Part shown: piece after piece, positions 9,211 to 14,402 of the stretch
Layout: each line of letters opens with the position of its first letter
Numbering within the stretch: the first letter of the stretch is position 1
From: Alicyclobacillaceae bacterium
Lineage (GTDB): Bacteria > Bacillota > Bacilli > Kyrpidiales > Kyrpidiaceae
Assembly: GCA_029961045.1 (NCBI GenBank)
Contig: JASBVN010000022.1
Coordinates: 1 to 64,000 of the forward strand
Reading direction: 5' to 3'
DNA: 64,000 nucleotides
Translations under genes and position numbers: made by a program
Notes under the pieces: model-generated
Database searches by the model: none
Told to the model about the DNA's origin: nothing
What the model saw: only the letters and a program-made list of their open reading frames with translations

Positions 9211-9396
9211 TTATCCCCAACGGCCTGTGGATAAATTGGGGATGGTTTGGCGAGTTGTTCACACCCCCTTGTGGATAATGTGGATAACGAGCTTGGAAGT
9301 CCTATTAATCGGGAGTTGGGGTGTGGATAAGCTTGTGGGGAAATCGGTGGCTCACGCGGCCGGGAGCCCGCCGGTCGCTGTGGATTCTGTGGATAA
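9211..9396. promoter_or_regulatory. DnaA-box cluster
   Basis: Five perfect TGTGGATAA sites (reverse complement of the consensus DnaA box TTATCCACA) occur in one orientation at 9226-9234, 9270-9278, 9279-9287, 9322-9330 and 9388-9396. A 7-of-9 copy at 9379-9387 abuts the last box, and a one-mismatch box TTATCCCCA lies opposite at 9211-9219. Boxes 2 and 3 abut directly. No AT-rich unwinding tract or dnaA/dnaN gene is nearby, so a titration or DnaA-responsive regulatory site is more likely than an origin. The 380-bp gap between fliT and the cold-shock gene holds nothing else I can name. Confidence 0.8.
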
Positions 9397-9541
9397 CCCG
9401 GGCTGCGGGTAGAATCCGGGCGGGCGGGTATAGGGCGATTCCGGCCGGTGTAAACTACCCGGTAGCGCCACCATCGTCCGGGAGCCGACCGGATCCATCG
9501 GCGGGTGGCCGAAGTTATCACCGGGAGGAATGAAGGAATCG

Positions 9542-9745
9542 ATGCAAGGACGTGTCAAGTGGTTCAATTCGGACAAGGGTTACGGATTTATTTCACGGGA
9601 CGATGGGGAGGACGTGTTCGTACACTATTCGGCCATCCAGACCCCCGGCTTCCGGACGTTGACCGAAGGTCAACTGGTGGAATTCGACATCGTCCAAGGG
9701 GCTCGGGGACCTCAAGCGGCAAACGTCGTGCCGGTCGGTCCGTAG
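9542..9745 (+). CDS. Cold-shock domain protein
   Basis: A 67-residue cold-shock protein: one five-stranded OB fold that binds single-stranded RNA or DNA and melts RNA structure. Both nucleic-acid-binding motifs are present: RNP1 as KGYGFIS (with preceding VKWFNSD) and RNP2 as VFVHYSAI. The ATG at 9542 is preferred to one at 9530 because AAGGA lies four bases upstream and the product then starts MQGRVKWFN, as in other Csp proteins. It has its own strong terminator, so it is monocistronic. The DnaA-box cluster lies directly upstream. Confidence 0.93.
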
Positions 9746-9761
9746 CCCTTTCCGGCGCTGG

Positions 9762-9811
9762 GCCCGGCGGTCCGGACGCAGGTCCGGTCTCCGCCGGGCT
9801 TGTTTTTGTTT
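9762..9811 (+). terminator. Strong rho-independent terminator of the csp gene
   Basis: GCCCGGCGG (9762-9770) pairs with CCGCCGGGC (9791-9799). An inner stem CCGGAC/GTCCGG (9772-9777 with 9782-9787) sits inside. The tail is TTGTTTTTGTTT. Confidence 0.85.
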
Positions 9812-9924: not shown

Positions 9925-10491
9925 ATGAGAATTCATGTTCGCGGAGACAACCTCGCCGTGACCGACGCGTTGAAAGATTACGCCGTTCGCAAGGTGGGGC
10001 GCTTGGAAAAGTATTTCGAGGCGCCCGCCGATCAGGACGTCTACGTGACCCTGTCGGTGCTGCGGGGTCAACACAAGGTCGAAGTGACGATGACTCTCGG
10101 CGGGATCGTATTCCGTGCCGAGGAGAAATCGGGGGATATGTACAGCTCCCTGGATTTGGTTGTGGATAAGTTGGTCTCCCAGATCGAGCGGCACAAGACG
10201 AAGATCAACCGGCGTTTCCGCCAGGAGGGCATCCGGACGCTCTTGAAAGAATCGGTTTCCGAATCGGCCTCCGATCTCCGGGGGGACGCGCCGCCGGAAA
10301 AGGAGGAAACCGGGGAAGTGGTTCGGGTGAAGCGGTTTCCGGTCAAACCCATGCAAGTGGAAGAGGCCATTTTGCAGATGGACCTGTTGGGACACGATTT
10401 CTTCGTCTTCGCCAATGCCGAGACGGACCAGGTCAACGTGGTGTACCGCCGGAAAGACGGCCATTACGGCCTGATTGAGCCGGAGTTCTGA
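9925..10491 (+). CDS. hpf: Ribosome hibernation promoting factor, long form
   Basis: A 188-residue long-form HPF, which dimerises 70S ribosomes into inactive 100S particles in stationary phase. The N-terminal S30AE domain (about residues 1-100: RIHVRGDNLAVTDALKDYAV) binds the decoding channel. A charged linker leads to the C-terminal dimerisation domain (about 130-188: KRFPVKPMQVEEAILQMDLL, then VNVVYRRKDGHYGLIEPEF). The ATG at 9925 follows GGAAGGGAGG. Its position before secA and prfB matches Bacillus yvyD. A terminator follows, so it is probably transcribed alone. Confidence 0.96.
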   Translation: MRIHVRGDNLAVTDALKDYAVRKVGRLEKYFEAPADQDVYVTLSVLRGQHKVEVTMTLGGIVFRAEEKSGDMYSSLDLVVDKLVSQIERHKTKINRRFRQEGIRTLLKESVSESASDLRGDAPPEKEETGEVVRVKRFPVKPMQVEEAILQMDLLGHDFFVFANAETDQVNVVYRRKDGHYGLIEPEF

Positions 10492-13252: not shown

Positions 13253-14402
13253 ATGGCCCAGACGTTCGGCGAACTCCGTCAGGCGCTCCAGGAAGCGGGG
13301 AAGCGCCTCGACGAAATCGGGAGGTCTCTTTGACCTCCCCGGAAAAAAAGCGCAAATCGCGGCTTTGGAGGAGCAGATGGCGGCTCCCGGTTTCTGGGAC
13401 GACCAGGAGGGCGCCCAGAAGGTGATCACCGAGGCGAATCGCCTCAAGGATTTGGTGGAACGGGTCGAAACCCTCCGGGCCCGCCTCGACGATTTGGAAG
13501 TGCTGTGGGAATTGGGGCACGAGGAGGGCGACGAGAGCGTCCTCCGGGAAATCGAAGACGGCCTCGAGAAAGTGCAGCGCCAGATGGCCGATTTTGAGCT
13601 GGAATTGATGCTCAGCGGTCCTTACGACAAAAATAACGCGATTGTCGAGCTGCATCCCGGGGCGGGGGGGACCGAGTCCCAAGACTGGGCGGCGATGTTG
13701 CTGCGCATGTACACCCGCTGGGCGGAGTCCCGGGGTTACAAGGTCGAAGTCCTCGACTACCTCCCGGGCGAGGAAGCCGGGGTGAAAAGCGTCACGTTGC
13801 TCATCAAGGGGCACAATGCCTACGGCTATTTGAAGGCGGAACGGGGGGTGCACCGGCTCGTCCGCATTTCCCCCTTCGACGCGTCGGGGCGGCGCCACAC
13901 CAGTTTCGCCTCCGTCGACGTCCTGCCCGAATTGGACGACGACGTCGAGGTGGAAATCCGGCCGGAGGACCTCAAGATCGACACCTACCGGTCCAGCGGC
14001 GCCGGAGGGCAACACGTCAACACCACCGACTCGGCGGTGCGGATCACCCACATTCCCACCGGCATCGTGGTCACCTGCCAGTCCGAGCGGTCCCAGATCA
14101 AAAACCGGGCCACGGCGATGAAGATTCTCGCCGCCCGGCTCTATGAACGGCGCCGCCGGGAACAAGAACAGCAAATTGCGGCCCTGCGCGGGGAACAAAA
14201 GGAAATCGCGTGGGGAAGCCAGATCCGTTCTTACGTGTTCCACCCTTATTCCCTCGTCAAGGATCACCGGACGGGGGTCGAGGTCGGCAATGTCCAGGCG
14301 GTGATGGACGGCGAGATCGACGAATTCATCGACGCCTGGCTGAGAAAACAGGTGGCAGACCGGCTGGAGGGCGGGGAGGAGTCCGCGGCGGCGTCCCGGT
14401 AA
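13253..14402 (+). CDS. prfB: Peptide chain release factor 2, programmed +1 frameshift
   Basis: RF2 recognises UGA and UAA stops and triggers peptide release. It is encoded in two frames. The first 26 codons start at ATG 13253 and end at an in-frame TGA (13331-13333) in the context GGGAGG-tct-CTT-TGA-C. A +1 slip at CTT continues in the downstream frame from GAC at 13332, giving about 382 residues. The codon-recognition SPF motif is at about 206-208 and the catalytic GGQ at about 251-253 ([20 protein letters not shown]). It lies 12 bases after secA, as in Bacillus. Confidence 0.97.
13323..13334 (+). promoter_or_regulatory. prfB autoregulatory frameshift site
   Basis: The Shine-Dalgarno-like GGGAGG (13319-13324) sits three bases before CTT TGA C (13328-13334). 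This is the classic RF2 recoding signal: low RF2 slows termination at UGA and favours the +1 slip. Confidence 0.93.

Follow-up and report, generated by a model that had tools for sequence, protein, structure and literature searches.

In Bacillus subtilis, DnaA binds eight regions in vivo as well as in vitro. Among them is gcp(tsaD)/ydiF, which contains 10 sites and has a Kd of 0.15 µM for ATP-DnaA (PMC4447404). Deletion of six clusters in this species results in early initiation (PMC5295017; PMC13220808). In Escherichia coli, initiation is restrained by datA, a non-coding DnaA-box locus located away from oriC at 94.7 min (PMC5295017). The locus described here is likewise non-coding and away from oriC, but it has no genes in common with datA and its boxes are more tightly spaced. 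Like the B. subtilis clusters, it is intergenic, contains many DnaA boxes and is oriC-proximal, although it lies outside the eight regions bound in vivo. By analogy with these clusters, we consider it probable that the locus represents a B. subtilis-type DnaA-box cluster with high affinity, an early-duplicated DnaA sink that restrains re-initiation from a conserved fliDST/hpf-secA locus on the left chromosome arm.

The window, which is the whole analyzed stretch of 64,000 nucleotides, carries the gene order fliD, fliS, fliT-like, csp, hpf, secA and prfB, and the cluster sits in the 381-bp gap between the fliT-like gene and csp. Neighboring genes are separated by 229 bp at most, and the initial annotation had fairly called this the only long gap of the region. 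The fliT-like gene (9160 being its last position and 8714 its first; plus strand) is the last gene of the flagellar operon and forms the left flank that is kept in Kyrpidia. It was named by position and has no NCBIfam match. The cold-shock protein gene csp (9542–9745, plus strand) follows directly here, and hpf, for the ribosome hibernation-promoting factor (9925–10491, plus strand), marks the conserved locus on its right-hand side. Further downstream, prfB appears to carry the well-known programmed +1 frameshift (13253–13333, plus strand): a short ATG frame starting at 13253 stops at a TGA (13331–13333, GGAGGTCTCTTTGAC), and the main frame continues there.

Five perfect DnaA boxes (TGTGGATAA) are located within 171 bp on the plus strand (9226–9396), and all are directed toward hpf. 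Box 1 (9226–9234) is followed by the abutting boxes 2 (9270–9278) and 3 (9279–9287), which form the core of the conserved array, and then by boxes 4 (9322–9330) and 5 (9388–9396). The start-to-start steps are thus 44, 9, 43 and 66 bp. Three weaker boxes bring the array to 186 bp: a box with one mismatch in the opposite orientation, found in the box scan (TGGGGATAA; 9211–9219, minus strand), a degenerate box that matches at 7 of 9 positions and abuts box 5 (TGTGGATTC; 9379–9387, plus strand), and a weak box with one mismatch to TTATNCACA (TTGTTCACA; 9255–9263, minus strand). The last of these is our addition; all others had been named in the initial annotation and were recovered where it had placed them. 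No terminator was found inside the cluster.

To judge the box density, shuffled sequences were used. In 1,500 dinucleotide shuffles of the window, the mean was 0.13 perfect boxes and two on the same strand never occurred within 171 bp, where the real sequence has five; the gap alone, shuffled 20,000 times, contained one perfect box at most. A genome-wide count, which had been proposed along with the cluster, yielded 14 perfect boxes: seven around dnaA, six in the window and one elsewhere, although further clusters may be absent from this count, because the draft Kyrpidiaceae assembly (2.19 Mb, 55 contigs) is about 80% complete. The sixth perfect box of the window, which had not been listed before, is located within the hpf coding sequence (10161–10169, plus strand). 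Kyrpidia genomes do not keep it and use other codons for the same residues; it is therefore probably a coincidence of coding, and we rejected it as a part of the array.

The seven boxes near dnaA lie within 1.7 kb (C2:7596–9325). The host DnaA is an ordinary one (TIGR00362 match). In one relative (G050:C1:2701045–2702196), dnaA reads through a single in-frame TAG, which represents a sequencing error or a real break. The oriC region (rpmH-dnaA-dnaN) shares with the cluster the box sequence and the dense clustering, and a box density comparable to that of oriC could suggest a secondary or relic replication origin. We consider such an origin very improbable. No AT-rich segment is present in the cluster gap, since 60-bp windows in and around it have 45–68% G+C, and an origin was rejected for lack of an AT-rich unwinding element. 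Moreover, neither dnaA nor dnaN is adjacent; both are on another contig, C2, where the true oriC surrounds dnaA. The orientation differs as well: nearly all boxes of the cluster point one way, whereas both orientations occur among the perfect boxes around dnaA.

The closest relatives of the genome belong to Kyrpidia, a genus of the same family. The array occupies the same place, directly after fliT, in three Kyrpidia genomes (loci L113–L115), of which two are single-contig. The geometry is nearly the same, with box steps of 43-9-42 bp in Kyrpidia G002 versus 44-9-43 bp in the window. The draft state of the assembly, with its many contigs, could be taken to favor a chance arrangement or a misassembly. 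Such an artefact has a negligible probability, because the shuffles never came near the real count, and it is refuted by the conservation. The arrays of the window and of Kyrpidia keep the abutting pair and lack a third box at a 12-bp step, so they do not match the triple-box pattern described below. In the complete Kyrpidia relatives, the locus is 14–14.5% of the chromosome away from dnaA, on the left arm.

The initial annotation had also suggested that the cluster may couple the DnaA level to csp. According to this idea, DnaA bound to the array would repress or activate the adjacent downstream gene, here csp, as at sda and ywlC of B. subtilis. DnaA clusters of this species do regulate adjacent genes (PMC4447404). 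The distance would suit an operator, since box 5 ends 145 bp ahead of the csp start codon. In Kyrpidia, however, other genes spanning 2 to 5 kb lie between the cluster and both csp and hpf. There, conservation of the csp leader is confined to approximately its last 100 bp, which start 3′ of the boxes and contain none. The gap between the fliT-like gene and csp also gave no sigma-70-type promoter match. An Rfam search detected no RNA family in the gap ahead of the csp leader; the sole match was to the cspA thermoregulator (9494–9796, plus strand), which overlaps csp and is below threshold (47 bits versus 78 required). A regulatory RNA in the gap was rejected, as this match begins 3′ of the boxes.

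We then turned to the class as a whole. The hpf neighborhoods of 59 relatives were fetched, and an array was defined as three or more near-consensus boxes that share a strand and fall within 140 bp. Arrays were present at 20 of the 59 loci, in 13 families, and all 20 were upstream of hpf and in hpf orientation. A 9-bp step occurred in 18 of these arrays, and in 17 of the 18 it was followed by a 12-bp step. Besides these 20, two more Kyrpidia have the abutting pair only. The spaced triple-box core of such arrays (TGTGGATAATGTGNAYAANNNTGTGNANAA) was searched in 301 genomes of the class Bacilli, with the reversed pattern as control. The core had 92 matches in 85 genomes, while the control had none. 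More than half of the matches (54, from 53 genomes) were located 0.1–7.3 kb upstream of hpf, each of the 54 in hpf orientation. Thus, conservation in relatives, whose absence had been named as a refutation of the cluster, speaks for it both in Kyrpidia and across the class. No array is present at about 60% of the 59 hpf loci, among them all Paenibacillaceae in that set; the hpf site is therefore dispensable or replaceable and not universal. Inverted arrays precede csp-hpf in Pelotomaculum and in two other draft genomes; one further draft genome has an inverted array upstream of an amino-acid transporter gene.

The arrays of the class also bear on the control of an adjacent gene. In four distant genomes the array is 100–260 bp ahead of hpf, a distance compatible with an operator. 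But the gene right after the array varies: it can be csp, hpf, the gene for a glutamine-type substrate-binding protein, that of its permease, or pxpB. In three genomes (loci L127, L132 and L168) the array even splits one amino-acid transporter operon, with the substrate-binding-protein gene on one side and the permease gene on the other. Given this lack of conservation downstream, control of csp was rejected as a conserved role, and we regard a DnaA-responsive operator in general as unlikely. The recurrence of place and orientation in at least 13 families despite the turnover of neighbors implies selection for both the array and its position. Since the array, its place and its orientation persist and the target gene does not, the pattern fits a role of the DNA site better than the control of one gene.

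Fifteen core loci that are not near hpf were fetched and inspected. Of these, tsaD and/or ydiF accounted for eleven, oriC for two and other places for two. The identity of TsaD was confirmed by TIGR03723. The core at gcp(tsaD)/ydiF, found in many genomes of the class with its abutting pair and third box, is common to the wider array family and serves as an external control, suggesting that the motif marks DnaA clusters. Five genomes (G022, G024, G025, G033 and G058) have abutting pairs at both hpf and tsaD. The two remaining arrays (L183, G020:C3:53000–62500; L180, G256:C1:831000–841000) show that additional clusters exist in some lineages. In contrast to the carriers of gcp/ydiF arrays, the family of the window has the hpf cluster and lacks the tsaD cluster: within 700 bp of tsaD there are no boxes in G000–G002 and one in G003.

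The two sites also differ in chromosomal position, the cluster being at fliDST-hpf on the arm opposite to B. subtilis gcp/ydiF. With some chromosome lengths rounded to 0.1 Mb, 16 of the 17 genomes with a computable position carried the hpf array on the left arm, at 4–15% of the chromosome from dnaA and thus outside oriC. For tsaD/ydiF, 12 of 14 entries mapped to the right arm; B. subtilis is one of the entries, and two have no abutting pair. The left-arm position and the distance may just reflect hpf-secA synteny.

Together, the oriC-type box, the conservation and the core at the DnaA-bound tsaD/gcp-ydiF region support the initial reading of the site as a DnaA-box cluster with the potential to titrate DnaA. 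DnaA binding is predicted from the identity of the boxes and from the motif common to a known target, and an effect on initiation is proposed by likeness to the B. subtilis clusters. DnaA would bind the co-oriented boxes as a cooperative complex with the abutting pair as its core. Because of its distance from dnaA, the locus would be duplicated early after initiation. Every new copy of the array would then remove DnaA from the free pool and so help to prevent early re-initiation at oriC. We favor a DnaA sink because removal of the six clusters in B. subtilis gives early initiation, and conservation of its position in many Firmicute families suggests that the site helps to limit the DnaA available for initiation.

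Instead of a passive sink, the cluster could be a switch for the DnaA nucleotide state, similar to E. coli datA, which acts by ATP hydrolysis, or DARS, which acts by ADP release. The single orientation and the fixed geometry, with steps of 9, 12, 31 or 43 bp, suggest a structured complex. Furthermore, the position of datA corresponds to a distance from oriC comparable to that of the cluster. We nevertheless give a switch little probability. According to a 2026 review, datA, DARS1, DARS2, IHF and Hda are all missing from B. subtilis, and no regulator that balances DnaA-ADP and DnaA-ATP is known in this species (PMC13220808). It is together with IHF that datA stimulates the hydrolysis of DnaA-ATP. 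No IHF is known in B. subtilis (PMC13220808).

A DnaA sink at this locus would concern a poorly understood matter, the limits on initiation outside oriC in Firmicutes. So far, the B. subtilis clusters have been viewed as sinks with partial redundancy, and according to a review, clusters with significant roles were not identified there (PMC5295017). The hpf or fliT region is not in the published top-20 list for B. subtilis, and a literature search that missed the primary B. subtilis cluster paper returned no mention of the fliT-hpf locus as a DnaA site. More tentatively, many Bacilli might possess paired DnaA-control arrays of fixed geometry, one on each arm and about equally far from oriC (fliT-hpf on the left arm, tsaD-ydiF on the right arm), which would act as a fork-timed counter; we see this as possible and still rather doubtful. 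Both arrays would be duplicated soon after initiation and would jointly reset free or active DnaA, and a lineage may lose either array while retaining its partner. The fliT-hpf array provides a defined locus at which DnaA titration can be tested in species that may have it as their main cluster.
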